Positions 46,872 through 54,641 of a stretch of DNA of 64,000 nucleotides are shown here, piece by piece. The notes under the pieces were generated by a model, which was not told where the DNA came from, did not search any database, and saw only the letters and a program-made list of their open reading frames with translations. The stretch is from contig JAEKNX010000008.1 in assembly GCA_016839055.1 (NCBI GenBank), positions 124,001 through 188,000 of the forward strand, written 5' to 3'. Numbering within the stretch: the first letter of the stretch is position 1; the number at the start of each line of letters is the position of its first letter. This DNA is from Spirochaetales bacterium. Lineage in GTDB: Bacteria; Spirochaetota; Spirochaetia; UBA9216. A program made the position numbers and the translations under genes.

Positions 46872-49370
46872 TTACGAAAGCAGACCCTCTGCCTCGATGT
46901 AGATTTTCAATTCTTCGAAGGCCGTTCTTACTGCAAGAAGATTTCCCTCAGAGGCTTCAAGTTCGCCGTCCCGAGATGAATATTCCAAATTCTTGGCAGC
47001 TTCGCCTAGATTATTCATGCTTAAGTTCAGTGCGCTACCCTTAATTGAATGGGCGATCTCCCTGCATCCCTCGGTATCACCACCGGAAAGACATTTTTCG
47101 ATTTCAGGAATCTGCCCCTCAACCTTCACCAGATACTCTTTGAGAACCCGTTTAACCACATCGGTATTCCCGAGGAAGGTCTCAACCGCATCATTAAAAT
47201 CAAAGGCTGCACGAGCTTCATTTACATTGTCCGATTCGTACTCCAATCCCTCAAGTTCTTCGATTTCCTCGATTTCCTCGATTTCCTCGATTTCCTCGAT
47301 TTCCTCGATTTCCTCGATTTCCTCGATTTCCTCGATTTCTTCGATTTCTTCGATAGAGACCAAGTCGGCACCAGACTCATGTATAGCGGCGGCACTACCG
47401 TCGTGACTAAGCCCTTTCCACTTTAGCAGAACAGGCTGGATGTCTTTCTTTTTAAAGGGCTTAGTCAGAAAATCGGACATTCCGCTTCCCATACATTTTT
47501 CCCGTTCACCCTTTATGGCACTCGCGGTAACTGCGACAATCGGGATATTAAGTCCGATACGGCGAATCTCGATTGAAGCCTCATAACCGTTCATTTCAGG
47601 CATCTGACAGTCCATGAAGATTATATCCGGGGCCGAATCTTCTGCCCTTGCCACGGCTTCAAGACCGTTAGCTGCAAGAACAACATCACAGCCTAGGTTC
47701 TGCAGGATTGACTTGAACAACTGCTGGTTTACCTCATGATCTTCCGCGACGAGGGCGGTTATGCGGCCTGCGGATTCATCATCAAGGGGAAGCAGTTCGG
47801 CGACTTCCTCTTCACTTACAGATTTCCGCATTCCTGCAAAAACCGAGAAGAGCTGATTTTTTTTAAGCGGTTTGTTTAAATATCCGCTAAACCATTTAAG
47901 CAGCTTCATCTTGGCTTCTTCAGCACTCCGTCCGGCCGGGCTGACCATATACATCTTGAGGTCCTTGAGACTCTGGTGTTCCGACTCATCTTTCATCGAA
48001 TTCACTTCACTCGCAAGGTACCAGCCGTCCATCCCCGGCATTATCTGGTCGATAATACAGGAAGTAAACGGAGACTCTGAGACAGCTGAATCCTTGATTA
48101 ATTCAAGTGCCTGTTTTCCGCCGGAGGCTTCCACAACCGAACATCCGAGTTCACTCAAATAGAGTGAGAGAATCTCACGGGCAGTCGGATTATCATCCAC
48201 AATGAGGACATTCTCGTCAGAATATTTCCCCCTGAAGGCCAAGTAAGGACTGGTTTCATTCTGCTTTCGAAATCTCGCGGTGAACCAGAAACTTGAACCC
48301 TCGCCGTACTTACTTTCCACTCCTATTTCCCCATTCATGAGATGGGTCAGGTTTCTTGATATTATGAGTCCCAGCCCCGTTCCGCCGAATTTCCTCGTTG
48401 TTGAAGAATCTACCTGGGAAAACTCCTTGAAAAGTTTTCCCATCTTTTCTTTGGCTACACCGATTCCTGTATCCCTGACACGGAACAGAATAAGAGCCTC
48501 TTCATCAGTTTCTTCCGCGGTGCTTATTCTGACTTCTATTTCGCCCTCAGAGGTGAATTTCATTGCGTTATTTACAAGATTCACGATTATCTGACGAAGC
48601 CTTGTCGGATCACCATAGACAAGATGTGGAACATCCGGTTCTATGTAAAGGGCTGTTTCAAGATTCTTCTCATGAGCCTTGAGTGCAATGAGATCTACTG
48701 CGCCCTGGGCTACTTCAAGAAGATCCATCTCTATTTCCTCGAGCTTCAGTTTTCCGGCTTCAATTTTCTCAACATCGAGGATGTCATTAATCAAACTAAG
48801 AAGGACCTCGGCTGAAAACTCCACCTGTCCGGCATATTCTTTCTGTTCCTCATCAAGATGAGTGTCCATAAGAAGCTCGGTCATTCCAATAATTGTATGT
48901 ATCGGAGTCCTGATTTCGTGACTCATATTTGCGAGAAATTCAGATTTTGTTTTTGTTGCCTGTTCTGCAATCTGCCGGGCTTTTTTCATTTGCTTCTCAA
49001 GCAGTATCTGCCGGGTAATGTCTTCAACTATTGCAAGCAGACAGAAGGGGGCATTCTTCTGGTAATTTATTCCTGATATATTTAACCTGCACCATCCGGT
49101 TCGGCCGTCCGGCTTTTTAAAACAGGCTTCAACCTTTATCCGTTTTCCACTGCCCTGCCGCAGCATAACGAACTTGCTCAAAATAAGCTCAGTATTGTCC
49201 GAAACAATAAGACCTATGATACTCTTTTTTTTAATTTCCGAAGCGCTGAGCCCGAAGATTCGGGACACGCCGCTATTGCACATGAGAATTTCACCATTAT
49301 CTTTGAAGAGCAGCATTCCCAGTGACGAATCCAGAAAAACTGATCTAAACAGATGTTCACTCTTGTCCAA
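46872..49370 (-). CDS. Hybrid sensor histidine kinase (PAS, HK, two receivers, HPt)
   Basis: About 832 residues, cytosolic. PAS domain (about 1-130), kinase with H-box ANMSHEIRTPIHTIIGM, N-box NLVNNAMKF, DTGIGV and GGTGLGL; first receiver (about 390-520, VLIVDDN...SCIIDQIMPGMDGW); second receiver (about 545-665, ALVAEDHEVN...IIFMDCQMPEMNGY); a repetitive Glu-Glu-Ile linker (about 680-715); HPt domain with phosphorylatable His in IAHSIKGSALNLSM near 785. This is a full internal phosphorelay. I chose the TTG at 49370 because GGGGGAGG sits 5 bases upstream; a TTG at 49385 has no site. It follows the double-receiver gene by 17 bases, a likely partner. Confidence 0.93.
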   Translation of the reverse strand: MDKSEHLFRSVFLDSSLGMLLFKDNGEILMCNSGVSRIFGLSASEIKKKSIIGLIVSDNTELILSKFVMLRQGSGKRIKVEACFKKPDGRTGWCRLNISGINYQKNAPFCLLAIVEDITRQILLEKQMKKARQIAEQATKTKSEFLANMSHEIRTPIHTIIGMTELLMDTHLDEEQKEYAGQVEFSAEVLLSLINDILDVEKIEAGKLKLEEIEMDLLEVAQGAVDLIALKAHEKNLETALYIEPDVPHLVYGDPTRLRQIIVNLVNNAMKFTSEGEIEVRISTAEETDEEALILFRVRDTGIGVAKEKMGKLFKEFSQVDSSTTRKFGGTGLGLIISRNLTHLMNGEIGVESKYGEGSSFWFTARFRKQNETSPYLAFRGKYSDENVLIVDDNPTAREILSLYLSELGCSVVEASGGKQALELIKDSAVSESPFTSCIIDQIMPGMDGWYLASEVNSMKDESEHQSLKDLKMYMVSPAGRSAEEAKMKLLKWFSGYLNKPLKKNQLFSVFAGMRKSVSEEEVAELLPLDDESAGRITALVAEDHEVNQQLFKSILQNLGCDVVLAANGLEAVARAEDSAPDIIFMDCQMPEMNGYEASIEIRRIGLNIPIVAVTASAIKGEREKCMGSGMSDFLTKPFKKKDIQPVLLKWKGLSHDGSAAAIHESGADLVSIEEIEEIEEIEEIEEIEEIEEIEEIEEIEEIEELEGLEYESDNVNEARAAFDFNDAVETFLGNTDVVKRVLKEYLVKVEGQIPEIEKCLSGGDTEGCREIAHSIKGSALNLSMNNLGEAAKNLEYSSRDGELEASEGNLLAVRTAFEELKIYIEAEGLLS
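47261..47350 (-). repeat. Nine-base tandem repeat inside the kinase gene
   Basis: On the plus strand CGATTTCCT is repeated 8 times exactly, followed by two CGATTTCTT copies. Translated on the minus strand it gives repeated Glu-Glu-Ile units between the second receiver and the HPt domain. Copy number changes would keep the frame and alter linker length by 3 residues each. Confidence 0.95.
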
Positions 49371-49387
49371 TAGATCCTCCCCCAAAA

Positions 49388-50812: not shown

Positions 50813-53233
50813 TTACCCCTGTTTCAATGGGTATCCCGCATTCTCTAGTGATGCTACAATCTGAGCCTCGACGCTTCGAAGGAATTCCGGCGACAGGGTT
50901 TTTTCCCTGTCCAGCAGCCAGGAACGCAAAGTGACGGTCTTCTGCTGCTCAGAGAGAGGGTAAACATCAGCTATACGAACGTCCTCTATTTCTTTAATCT
51001 TGACCTTTTTCAGTACAGAGAGTACATCCGCTACAGGAACACCGGTCTCGACAACTACTGTACAGTCGAAGGTTGAACCGGGGAATTTTGCCAAAGGCTT
51101 ATATTTGGTCTGATCCTTAATCGGACGATCCATAAAATCGGTGATATCCAGGACTGCCATAACCAGGTTACCCTTGATTTTAAAGTTCTTAGCCATTACA
51201 GGATGAATGCTGCCGATAAATCCGCAGCTTTTTCCCATGACCCGGATATCTAAAATTTCATGCGGGTGTTTTCCTGTCCAGAGCGCCGGGATGAGCGGGT
51301 TGGGAAATTTCTGATTCGGGGGCTGAATTTGTGCATTCAGCCTGAGGCTGTCGAGAAGATCACCCATCAGGTTGAGAACTTCCATGAATGGTGAGTCCTG
51401 CTTGTCAAAGTAGATGATGCCCAGCTGGTGCCGATCCTCACTAAAATCCTTCTCCGACTCGAGATAACTTCGGCCCAGTTCGAAGAGCCTGAACTTATTA
51501 TGGTACTTCTGGTTCAGCGCGGCCTTTTCGAGCAGGGAAGGGACGAGGGACGGCCGCATGCGGTCGGTCTCGGGGCTCAAGGAATTTGCCAGCACAAGAT
51601 TTTCATTCATCACATCCCAGCCGGCCTGCTCAAGGAGCTTCGCCCCGATTAGCGGATAGGAGTAAATCTCAAGAGCCCGGCCGCGGTAAACAAGAAAATC
51701 CTGAATCTTTCGCTCAAGAATCTTGGCCGCACTGAGGCTGATAGCGGTTATCTCGTTATGAGGGGCAACCGGAACGAGCCTGTCATATCCGTAAATCCGA
51801 CCGATGTCCTCAATAAGGTCGGCATCTACCTCAACATCCTTGGTGGCACGGTAGGTGGGAACTGTTACCTTAAGTATTCCGCCCGCGGGCGTCACACTAT
51901 ATTCAAGCGATTCGAGGAGCCTTATAACCTCGTCTTCATTCAGGCTGGTGCCAAGGATGGAATTGACCCGACTGAGGGTCAGATCAATTACAAGTGGAGG
52001 ATTTAACCTTAAGCCGTCAGAGACAAGAGGTCCTACGACTACAGCCTCAGGGCAGCTGTCCAGAATGAGCTCCAGGATGCGCAGAACCGTCCTCTCGAGC
52101 TGATGGCTGTCGAGGGATTTTTCATACCGCTGCGACGCGTCGGTCCGAAGCCCCAGCCTCGTGGATGTACGACGAACAAGTTCCGGCTTCCAGTTGGCTA
52201 CTTCGATGAAGATTCGAGTAGTGCTAGCCTTTACGCTGCTGGTGAGTCCGCCCATAATTCCGCCGATTGAGGAAGGCCCGTCAAGGTCACAGACCATTGT
52301 GTCCGAGGGAATCATCTTCCGCTCCATCTCATCAAGGGTGACAAAGATGGACTGCTCACCATTTTCCCGGACTATTATCTTATTTCCCCGGATTGTATCA
52401 CGATCGAAGAGGTGGTTTGGCATGCCCTGCTCAAGCATTACATAGTTGGAAATATCTACAATATTGTTTATGGGCCGCATGCCGCAGGCGGAGAGCCTCT
52501 GCTGCATCCACAGGGGACTCGGTTTTACAGTAACATTATCAACGCTCAATCCCAGGAATCCAAGACAGGCGGTTCCTTCCTGAACATCAATGGAAACCGG
52601 TGCAGCATCTGAGTTGTAATGCTTTCGCATTTTCTCTATCCACTTTTCATCGAAGGGCCTTGCCAGGGGCTTGCCGAAGGCTGCGGCAAACTCACGCGCC
52701 ATACCGTAATGACCCCAGAGGTCGGGCCGGTGGGTAATGGATTTATTATCGACGTCAAGCAGTACATCACGCTTTAACTTCATATGCTCAGCCAGGCTCA
52801 TTCCGACAATTGCATCGGCCGGCAGTTCCAGCAGCCCTTCGTGTCCGTCGCCCAGGCCGAGTTCATCTTCGGCGCAGAGCATACCTTCGCTCATCACACC
52901 GCGAATAGCCTTGGGAACAAGGGTAAAACCGCCGGGAAGCGTTGTGCCGATGGGCGCAAAGGCAACCTTCATTCCGGGCGCAACATTCGGAGCGCCGCAG
53001 ACGACTCTTCGTTCTCCGCTTCCTGTCTTGAAGCTGACAAGATTCAGCTTATCCGCTTCGGGATGAGGTTCAACATTTATAATTTCAGCAACCGTAACCT
53101 GCTCCATATGGGCGTTGGTTTCCTCAACCCCTTCTACCTCACAGGTGGAGAGTGTAAATCTTACTCCCATCTCCTGGGGTGTCAGGTCCGGCAGCTGCAC
53201 AAAATCTTTTATCCAATCTAAACTAATTTTCAT
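50813..53233 (-). CDS. pheT: Phenylalanine-tRNA ligase beta subunit
   Basis: 806 residues, full length. With PheS it charges tRNA-Phe. Domains in order: N-terminal start MKISLDWIKDFVQLPDLTP, EMAP/tRNA-binding domain (about 40-150, VTVAEIINVEPHPEADKLNLVSF), B3/4 editing region (210-380, containing RPINNIVDISNYVMLEQGMPNHLFD), B5 domain (400-475), catalytic-like core (FRLFELGRSYLE), and C-terminal anticodon-binding domain (KFPGSTFDCTVVVETGVPVADV, VRIADVYPLSEQQKTVTLRSWLLDREKTLS). Follows pheS by 9 bases; both depend on the attenuated promoter at 54.6 kb. Confidence 0.97.
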   Translation of the reverse strand: MKISLDWIKDFVQLPDLTPQEMGVRFTLSTCEVEGVEETNAHMEQVTVAEIINVEPHPEADKLNLVSFKTGSGERRVVCGAPNVAPGMKVAFAPIGTTLPGGFTLVPKAIRGVMSEGMLCAEDELGLGDGHEGLLELPADAIVGMSLAEHMKLKRDVLLDVDNKSITHRPDLWGHYGMAREFAAAFGKPLARPFDEKWIEKMRKHYNSDAAPVSIDVQEGTACLGFLGLSVDNVTVKPSPLWMQQRLSACGMRPINNIVDISNYVMLEQGMPNHLFDRDTIRGNKIIVRENGEQSIFVTLDEMERKMIPSDTMVCDLDGPSSIGGIMGGLTSSVKASTTRIFIEVANWKPELVRRTSTRLGLRTDASQRYEKSLDSHQLERTVLRILELILDSCPEAVVVGPLVSDGLRLNPPLVIDLTLSRVNSILGTSLNEDEVIRLLESLEYSVTPAGGILKVTVPTYRATKDVEVDADLIEDIGRIYGYDRLVPVAPHNEITAISLSAAKILERKIQDFLVYRGRALEIYSYPLIGAKLLEQAGWDVMNENLVLANSLSPETDRMRPSLVPSLLEKAALNQKYHNKFRLFELGRSYLESEKDFSEDRHQLGIIYFDKQDSPFMEVLNLMGDLLDSLRLNAQIQPPNQKFPNPLIPALWTGKHPHEILDIRVMGKSCGFIGSIHPVMAKNFKIKGNLVMAVLDITDFMDRPIKDQTKYKPLAKFPGSTFDCTVVVETGVPVADVLSVLKKVKIKEIEDVRIADVYPLSEQQKTVTLRSWLLDREKTLSPEFLRSVEAQIVASLENAGYPLKQG

Positions 53234-53242
53234 GTCTATCTC

Positions 53243-54286
53243 CTAGTAGGTCTTGAACTGTTCGGAAAACTGAAGATTCCCGCTGTGAAGATGCCTTACA
53301 TCATCGATGTGATATCTCATCATGGCAAGCCGGTCGATGCCAAGACCGAAGGCGAATCCATTCCACTTATTAGGATCAATTCCTCCGCCGGACAGTACAT
53401 TGGGATGAACCATTCCGCAGCCGAGGCCCTCAACCCAGCCTACCTGCTTGCAGACCGAACAACCCTTGCCGCCGCAAAGCAGGCATTCATAATCGAGTTC
53501 AAATCCGGGTTCGACAAAGGGGAAAAATCCAGGACGAAGTCGAACCTTGATCTCCCGTTTAAAAATTTCAGAGAGAAGAGTTCGCAGAAAGTGAATCATA
53601 TGCGGCACGGCAATATCCTTGCCGACCATCATACCTTCGAGCTGGTGAAAGGCCGCTTCATGACTTGCGTCCAGGGTTTCACAACGAAAAACCTTTCCGG
53701 GACCAACGAATTTAAATGGTGGTTTTTTCTGCTCCATTCCGCGAATCTGAATGTTGGATGTATGAGTACGCAGCAGATGCTTCTTATCCTTAAACCAGAA
53801 GGTGTCCTGCATGTCACGTGCGGGATGAGATTCAGGAATATTCAGGGCCTCGAAATTGTGATATTCATCTTCTATGTGAGGGCCGTCTAGGATGTCAAAG
53901 CCCATCGAGAGAAAAATATCCTCGAGCTCACGGGTAACCTGGGTTAAAGGATGCAGCCCCGCAGCCTGTTGGCCGAGGTCTTTAATCTTATCAGTCCAGC
54001 TGATGTCAAGCTTGTTCTTTGCAAGCTTTGCGTTGATTGCTTCCAGCTCTATATCCTGGCTGCGCTTATCAATTGCATCCGTCATTTCCTGCTTGACCTC
54101 ATTGGCCCTGGCTCCGAAGGATTTTTTTTCTTCTACCGAGAGGTCCCTCATTCCGCCCATAAGAGCATTCAGCTTTCCCTTCTTACCCAGGAAATCCGCC
54201 TTGAACTGGGCCATATCGGGCATAGACCCTACCAAGCCTACTCCGGAATCAAATTCCTTTTTCACCTCTTCCAATTTCTGAAGCAT
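53243..54286 (-). CDS. pheS: Phenylalanine-tRNA ligase alpha subunit
   Basis: 347 residues. The N-terminal coiled-coil arm (1-85) contains FKADFLGKKGKLNALMGGM. The class II catalytic core follows: HPLTQVTRELEDIFLSMGFDI, motif 2 LLRTHTSNIQIRGM...GKVFRCETLDASHEAAFHQLEGMMVG, and motif 3 GFAFGLGIDRLAMMRY near the C-terminus. ECLLCGGKGCSVCKQVGW is a small Cys-rich insertion usual in bacterial PheS. AGGAG precedes the ATG. The gene is preceded by 320 bases of leader with a Phe-rich peptide, a terminator and three hairpins. Confidence 0.97.
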   Translation of the reverse strand: MLQKLEEVKKEFDSGVGLVGSMPDMAQFKADFLGKKGKLNALMGGMRDLSVEEKKSFGARANEVKQEMTDAIDKRSQDIELEAINAKLAKNKLDISWTDKIKDLGQQAAGLHPLTQVTRELEDIFLSMGFDILDGPHIEDEYHNFEALNIPESHPARDMQDTFWFKDKKHLLRTHTSNIQIRGMEQKKPPFKFVGPGKVFRCETLDASHEAAFHQLEGMMVGKDIAVPHMIHFLRTLLSEIFKREIKVRLRPGFFPFVEPGFELDYECLLCGGKGCSVCKQVGWVEGLGCGMVHPNVLSGGGIDPNKWNGFAFGLGIDRLAMMRYHIDDVRHLHSGNLQFSEQFKTY

Positions 54287-54453: not shown

Positions 54454-54466
54454 CATAGGCTTAACC

Positions 54467-54500
54467 AAAAAAAAACGGATTCCCCGGTTAGAGGAACCCG
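54467..54500 (-). terminator. Attenuator terminator of pheST
   Basis: On the minus strand CGGGTTCC / GGAATCCG (8 pairs with one G-U, 54476-54500) followed by nine U (54467-54475). It begins 19 bases after the stop codon of the Phe-rich leader peptide and lies before pheS, so it must be read through to express pheST. Confidence 0.85.
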
Positions 54501-54519
54501 CTGTTAAGCCCTGTTATTA

Positions 54520-54603
54520 CTATTTCAGGGAAAACCGTTGGCCCTCATCAGCAGAGTTGCTAAAAAAGAAAAAAAAGCTAAAAAATCTTGACCGGTTTTC
54601 CAT
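54520..54603 (-). CDS. Phenylalanine-rich leader peptide of pheST
   Basis: 27 codons on the minus strand starting ATG at 54603 and ending TAG at 54520. The peptide contains RFFSFFFFFS at positions 6-15 (seven Phe codons in nine codons) and one more Phe near the end. It lies between a good promoter and an intrinsic terminator upstream of phenylalanyl-tRNA synthetase genes, the same arrangement as attenuation-controlled pheST of enteric bacteria. Slow Phe-tRNA supply would stall the ribosome on the Phe run and favour readthrough. The start of the frame (54593-54601) is complementary over 9 bases to its end (54529-54537), a possible protector hairpin. No ribosome binding site is seen; translation may be leaderless. 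Confidence 0.85.
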   Translation of the reverse strand: MENRSRFFSFFFFFSNSADEGQRFSLK

Positions 54604-54613
54604 AGTAATTTCT

Positions 54614-54641
54614 ATTATAATTGCGAGGTGGATTTAGTCAA
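54614..54641 (-). promoter_or_regulatory. Sigma-70 promoter of pheST
   Basis: On the minus strand TTGACT (54636-54641), 16-base spacer, perfect TATAAT (54614-54619). The predicted start is a few bases before the leader-peptide ATG at 54603. Confidence 0.75.

Follow-up and report, generated by a model that had tools for sequence, protein, structure and literature searches.

A candidate phenylalanine attenuator, probably leaderless, in front of pheST in a spirochaete

Organization of the pheST Locus

The window, as we call the whole stretch of 64,000 nucleotides that was analyzed, encodes on its minus strand both chains of a bacterial-type phenylalanine–tRNA ligase. The source genome, from a marine spirochaete, lies near Candidatus Thalassospirochaeta and a group of related metagenome-assembled genomes. 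The leader in front of pheS was compared with those of its six nearest relatives (L002–L007) and of 17 further spirochaete loci, several of them from other families. The elements of the locus are given below in the direction of transcription.

54614–54641, minus strand: sigma-70-type promoter, TTGACT-N16-TATAAT; 24 leaders have this consensus promoter in the same position
54604–54613, minus strand: ten bases between the -10 box and the ATG; spacing 8–12 nt in 24 leaders
54593–54606, minus strand: 5' arm of the closing helix P1, covering the start codon; duplex of -16.2 kcal/mol with 54519–54537
54520–54603, minus strand: leader peptide ORF, MENRSRFFSFFFFFSNSADEGQRFSLK, 27 codons plus TAG; conserved in L002–L007, L083 and L116
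54562–54585, minus strand: Phe control codons (codons 7–14), TTT TTT AGC TTT TTT TTC TTT TTT; the only stretch in the window with at least six Phe in nine codons
54554–54556, minus strand: candidate region 1 (CTC), able to pair with GAG of region 2; weak, 3–5 pairs, by inspection of relatives
54540–54546, minus strand: region 2 (GAGGGCC), which forms the 5' side of the antiterminator; L007, L083 and L116 show covariation with region 3
54519–54537, minus strand: 3' arm of P1, formed by the ORF end and stop codon; duplex with 54593–54606
54509–54530, minus strand: inner hairpin of the antiterminator, CCCTG...CAGGG (CCTG/CAGG in L005, CTCTG/CAGGG in L006)
54491–54502, minus strand: region 3, shared by the terminator (as its 5' arm) and the antiterminator (as its 3' arm), from sequence and folding
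54467–54485, minus strand: region 4, which holds the 3' side of the terminator stem together with the nine-T tract; near-identical in L002–L006
54310–54448, minus strand: copy of a dispersed genomic repeat (about 140 bp, three hairpins) between terminator and pheS; 24 full or partial matches in the genome
53243–54286, minus strand: pheS, phenylalanine–tRNA ligase alpha, bacterial type, the putatively regulated gene (TIGR00468, 303 bits, cut-off 237)
50813–53233, minus strand: pheT, phenylalanine–tRNA ligase beta, bacterial type, separated from pheS by 9 bp (TIGR00472, 630 bits, cut-off 403)

The promoter consists of TTGACT (54641–54636) and TATAAT (54619–54614), separated by a 16-bp spacer, and matches 11 of the 12 consensus bases. 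The leader ORF opens with the ATG at 54603, ends with the stop codon at 54522–54520, and carries seven Phe codons within nine. A gap of 17–18 nt leads from the stop to the terminator stem (54502–54474), which has 12 pairs and a loop of 5 nt and runs into nine T (54475–54467). The pheS ATG lies at 54286. An earlier note on this DNA had listed the promoter, the ATG, the 27-codon peptide with its Phe codons, the stop and the terminator with nine U, all upstream of pheS. These were correct to the base; the distance from stop to terminator, put there at 19 bases, is slightly shorter. Among 87,987 stop-free nine-codon windows in the six frames of the 64 kb, the leader locus is the only one with at least six Phe codons, and a chance origin of the run was therefore rejected. 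The two ends of the peptide frame, also said to be complementary, match perfectly: GGAAAACCG (54601–54593) pairs with CGGTTTTCC (54537–54529), and the helix extends further through ACTAT (54606–54602) and ATAGT (54523–54519), so that the stop codon is paired along with the opening bases of the ATG. P1 thus brings the two ends of the ORF together, with the AUG in one arm and the stop codon in the other.

The interval between the leader stop and pheS measures 233 bp in the window versus 84–152 bp in the nearest relatives. It was considered as a component of the switch and rejected, since it contains the dispersed repeat. The form of this repeat suggests a MITE- or REP-like element or else a structured RNA repeat, and it could have an effect of its own on expression. 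The arms of its first hairpin vary in a compensating way among the copies, which include L185–L191. A separate 8-bp inverted repeat, perfect and absent from the nearest relatives, surrounds the terminator (GGCTTAAC and GTTAAGCC, at 54503–54510 and 54458–54465). Elsewhere in the window, a hybrid histidine kinase (46872–49385, minus strand) carries about a dozen Ile-Glu-Glu repeats between its receiver and Hpt domains.

Conservation of the Leader in Spirochaetes

In all 24 leaders, which belong to several families, a consensus promoter is followed by an ATG that opens a short, Phe-rich ORF immediately 5' of pheS; nearly all of them have a terminator. The alignment of related genomes, proposed in the earlier note as a check, shows that the Phe run, the frame and the terminator are kept in L002–L007, nearly all of which carry the run AGC TTT TTT TTC TTT TTT; the PheS proteins of L002–L006 are 86–90% identical. 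In more distant leaders, the peptide remains rich in Phe, as in MKGTFFFSGFFFFFFGFFTREKPGMS (L020), MLYAADSFFSFFFFFFGVREYPRKP (L049), MRKPEFYFFNFFFFFFIGGETPGLV (L019) and MTGTTFFFSFFFSFFFFGKGC (L117). Of these, L049 belongs to a cultured organism, Candidatus Marispirochaeta associata JC231. A covariance model (R1) that was built from nine close leaders only finds many or most of the other leaders at the expected position, including those of other families (L020, 1.9e-8; L132, 2.8e-6; L117, 1.2e-5; L049, 1e-4; L017, 1.6e-4). No leader was found before the bacterial-type pheS of the spirochaetes L011, L014 and L085.

Relatives that keep pheST and the spacing but lose the Phe run had been counted in advance against attenuation. 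One small subclade goes part of the way. Its Phe codons stand apart, with Tyr among them: two plus a late one in L069, and four each in L071 and L076. Promoter and terminator are retained. Judged from the sequences, this pattern reads as erosion in one lineage rather than as a refutation. As an experiment of nature, the subclade could show how small a number of control codons is enough.

Other leaders of this kind were searched for in the same genome. A five-Phe-codon pattern returned mostly antisense GAA repeats and no second promoter-ATG-Phe run, and no convincing leader for another amino acid was found among the leaderless promoter-ATG pairs. An Ile-rich leaderless ORF candidate was observed at L205.

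Covariation and Ribosome-Masked Folding

The arms of the antiterminator differ among families, being GAGGGA/UUCCUC in the genus of the window, GAGGGAG/CUCCCUC in L009 and L117, and GGGGAAACCCC/GGGUUUCC in L019, and occupy the same place in each. Compensatory changes are found in L007 and L083, where GAGGGAC/GUUCCUC is replaced by GAGGGAU/AUUCCUC, and in L116, where the first pair changes from G-C to C-G. P1 covaries as well. Its core GGAAAA/UUUUCC becomes GGGAAA/UUUCCC in L007, its extension ACUAU/AUAGU becomes UUAU/AUAA in L006, and arms from the same species pair more strongly than arms combined across species (mean -14.3 versus -11.3).

The nascent leader was folded with a ribosome at each codon in turn, leaving out of the fold all RNA to a point 12 nt beyond the first base of the A-site codon. 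While the ribosome occupies the Phe codons, the terminator's 5' arm is predicted to pair mostly with upstream RNA (mean 0.77), compared with 0.21 when the ribosome stands at the stop codon. In most leaders, the upstream pairing is lost two to three codons past the last Phe. The mean difference between the two positions is 0.56 for the real leaders and 0.24 for shuffled sequences (100 shuffles per leader), and at most three of 100 shuffles perform as well in nine leaders (L005, L083, L009, L117, L010, L086, L130, L132 and L012). A clear switch is absent in L013, L016, L121, L049 and L008, and L116 switches only if the late Phe codon after its run is ignored.

The comparison of folds with and without a ribosome, which had also been suggested, thus bears out a switch for the family beyond shuffled sequences, and does not do so for the leader of the window taken by itself: 40 of its 100 shuffles switch equally well. 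Its fold alone was accordingly rejected as proof, and the case for the switch rests on the family.

Without a ribosome, P1 is predicted to be in place by the time region 3 is transcribed, with the AUG paired at 0.7–0.9 in L001–L004. The antiterminator can displace P1 at equilibrium once region 3 has emerged, so that the P1 step depends on kinetics. A protector hairpin had been proposed for these arms. The proposal agrees with their covariation and with the predicted formation of P1 ahead of the second antiterminator arm, and has to be qualified in that the helix also buries the AUG.

Probable Leaderless Initiation

The distance from the end of the -10 box to the ATG is 8–12 nt in 24 of 24 leaders (two rows were re-read by eye). 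Because this spacing is fixed, the transcript is predicted to start only a few bases from the ATG, at about 54606–54607 in the window, which would leave a 5' UTR of some 3–4 nt. A Shine-Dalgarno site has no room, since the promoter occupies its place. The leader peptide is thus probably leaderless, and the suggestion of translation from a leaderless transcript, made originally from the window alone, fits the conserved spacing and the lack of room for such a site.

Such an arrangement is plausible for the source organism. A consensus promoter followed by an ATG within 5–13 nt occurs 72 times in its genome, versus 17 times for a reversed-pattern control, and about half of the 72 pairs open long frames. 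These include what we take to be alaS, metG and ispE, their N-termini having been recognized by inspection and not by family search. Going by these promoter-ATG pairs, leaderless messages may be common in the genus. Candidates in the source genome include L160, L222, L192, L173, L164 and L180.

Proposed Mechanism and Alternative Readings

Two features of the attenuator class are present in the window, namely a run of Phe codons before pheST and an intrinsic terminator between the ORF and pheS. A third, the antiterminator, is found for the leader family, the window sequence alone not rising above its shuffles. We consider it very likely that the leader is a ribosome-mediated transcription attenuator coupling pheST expression to charged tRNA-Phe, as the earlier note had proposed; the Phe run, the spacing and the terminator recur in the 24 leaders, most of which are predicted to switch as the ribosome moves. 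RNA polymerase would start 3–4 nt 5' of the ATG, and a ribosome would load on the leaderless 5' end. When Phe-tRNA is plentiful, the ribosome would pass the seven Phe codons, reach the stop and cover region 2 (GAGGGCC), leaving region 3 to pair with region 4 and transcription to end at the nine-U tract. When Phe-tRNA is short, the ribosome would stall on the Phe run, and region 2 would be free to pair with region 3, which would block the terminator and allow transcription of pheST. If no ribosome loads, P1 would form first, bury the AUG and favor termination by default. Most likely, the switch would raise the synthetase when Phe-loaded tRNA is short.

A constitutive partial terminator that merely sets the basal level of pheST, with the U-rich ORF as an incidental product of T-rich DNA, would fit both the chance-level antiterminator of the window (40 of 100 shuffles) and the persistence of the terminator in L069 despite its few Phe codons. 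We judge it improbable, as species whose DNA has diverged outside the run still share the Phe frame, the ATG and the stop, the insertions in the ORFs of L002, L004 and L005 are multiples of three, and the Phe run and the antiterminator occur together in about 20 leaders. A second alternative is control at the level of translation or coupled to it, in which the leader ORF would act through reinitiation or through unmasking of the pheS ribosome-binding site instead of termination. Precedents come from mycobacteria, where an attenuator role has been reported for leaderless Cys-rich leader ORFs (Canestrari et al. 2020, cited through PMC13236596) and the cys leaders lack obvious terminators, according to PMC1262725. 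Against it stand the strong U-tract terminator between ORF and pheS in nearly all homologues and the distance from leader stop to pheS, which varies from 72 to 252 nt and is hard to reconcile with coupled initiation; this reading is very improbable.

A leader of this length with alternative structures might likewise be sensed by a protein factor or by phenylalanine binding to the RNA, or be a T-box, which we regard as extremely improbable. Searches of the leader region with covariance models returned no T-box, riboswitch or other Rfam family at threshold, and the sole conserved sensing feature is the run of Phe codons in a frame from start to stop. The attenuator coupled to charged tRNA-Phe remains the preferred reading.

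Distribution and Probable Transfer of the Switch

An archaeal-type PheRS is a known trait of Spirochaetaceae (PMC3191353). Among 395 Spirochaetia genomes, archaeal PheT is present in 325 and a bacterial-type PheS of the kind found in the window in 46, and the genus of the window has the bacterial type only. The archaeal enzyme is therefore not a character of the whole class. The distributions of the two types are nearly complementary.

Desulfogranum (L008) and the cultured Desulfopila sp. IMCC35008 (L012) group with the spirochaetes L009, L010 and L117 in a fully supported clade of the PheS tree. These two are the only ones among 243 sampled Desulfobulbia genomes in which the match to this PheS reaches an E value of 1e-120. 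L012 retains the Phe leader with the antiterminator and terminator laid out as in L009 and L010. L008 has no clearly identifiable leader ATG. The simplest reading of the tree and the leaders is that pheS moved with its switch from a spirochaete into Desulfobulbia, synthetase and switch probably moving together. More tentatively, and rather doubtfully, the leader and its genes may travel as one mobile cassette. In this view, a leaderless Phe attenuator would accompany bacterial-type pheST in a minority of Spirochaetia without the archaeal-type PheRS typical of the class, and would have passed with pheST into Desulfobulbia. With the ORF fully transcribed, its AUG would lie buried in the closing helix, and Phe-tRNA could be reported on solely by a ribosome that loads promptly.

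Comparison with Known Attenuators

Attenuation as a mechanism is textbook knowledge, and in classical attenuators a protector stem favors termination. The prototype at the same genes is the pheM (pheMST) attenuator of Escherichia coli, which works through mutually exclusive structures. The pheM peptide is rich in Phe, and the operon is regulated by attenuation (PMC5371410). The window leader shares with it the Phe-rich peptide, the mutually exclusive structures (here predicted) and the regulated genes, but lacks a ribosome-binding site, has a promoter that abuts the ATG and a start codon inside the closing helix, and belongs to a different phylum. The best Rfam match of the leader region is RF01859 (Phe_leader), at 23.4 bits, far below the gathering threshold of 55; the leader would work like this family and is not filed in it.

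The trpL leader of Sinorhizobium meliloti (rnTrpL/peTrpL), whose transcript begins with the start codon of its leader ORF (PMC7298713), resembles the window leader in this start, predicted for the latter, and in ribosome-mediated attenuation, but concerns Trp and trpE(G) in an alphaproteobacterium. The mycobacterial ORFs mentioned above are leaderless, as is predicted for the window, and short with a codon run for one amino acid; they differ in encoding Cys and, as candidate leaders, in lacking obvious terminators. The accessible part of PMC1262725 describes actinobacterial attenuators at trp, ilvB and leuS that combine a leader peptide with an antiterminator and a terminator, as here, for other amino acids; it mentions no leader-peptide attenuator at pheST.

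A survey of 2010 stated that such systems were known only in Proteobacteria and Actinobacteria and added Firmicutes (PMC2965389). No spirochaete case was found in the open-access literature, most subscription papers lying outside it, so that the earlier description of the leader as unexpected in spirochaetes was fair. The leaders analyzed here would bring Spirochaetota into the range of phyla in which leader peptides control an aminoacyl-tRNA synthetase by attenuation, and the homologues are numerous enough to test the balance of leaderless initiation, control codons and RNA structure. A regulatory switch that apparently crosses phyla with its gene bears on whether attenuators originate by transfer or anew. 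The mechanism is already known; what is new is the phylum, the probable leaderless design of a pheST leader and the apparent transfer.
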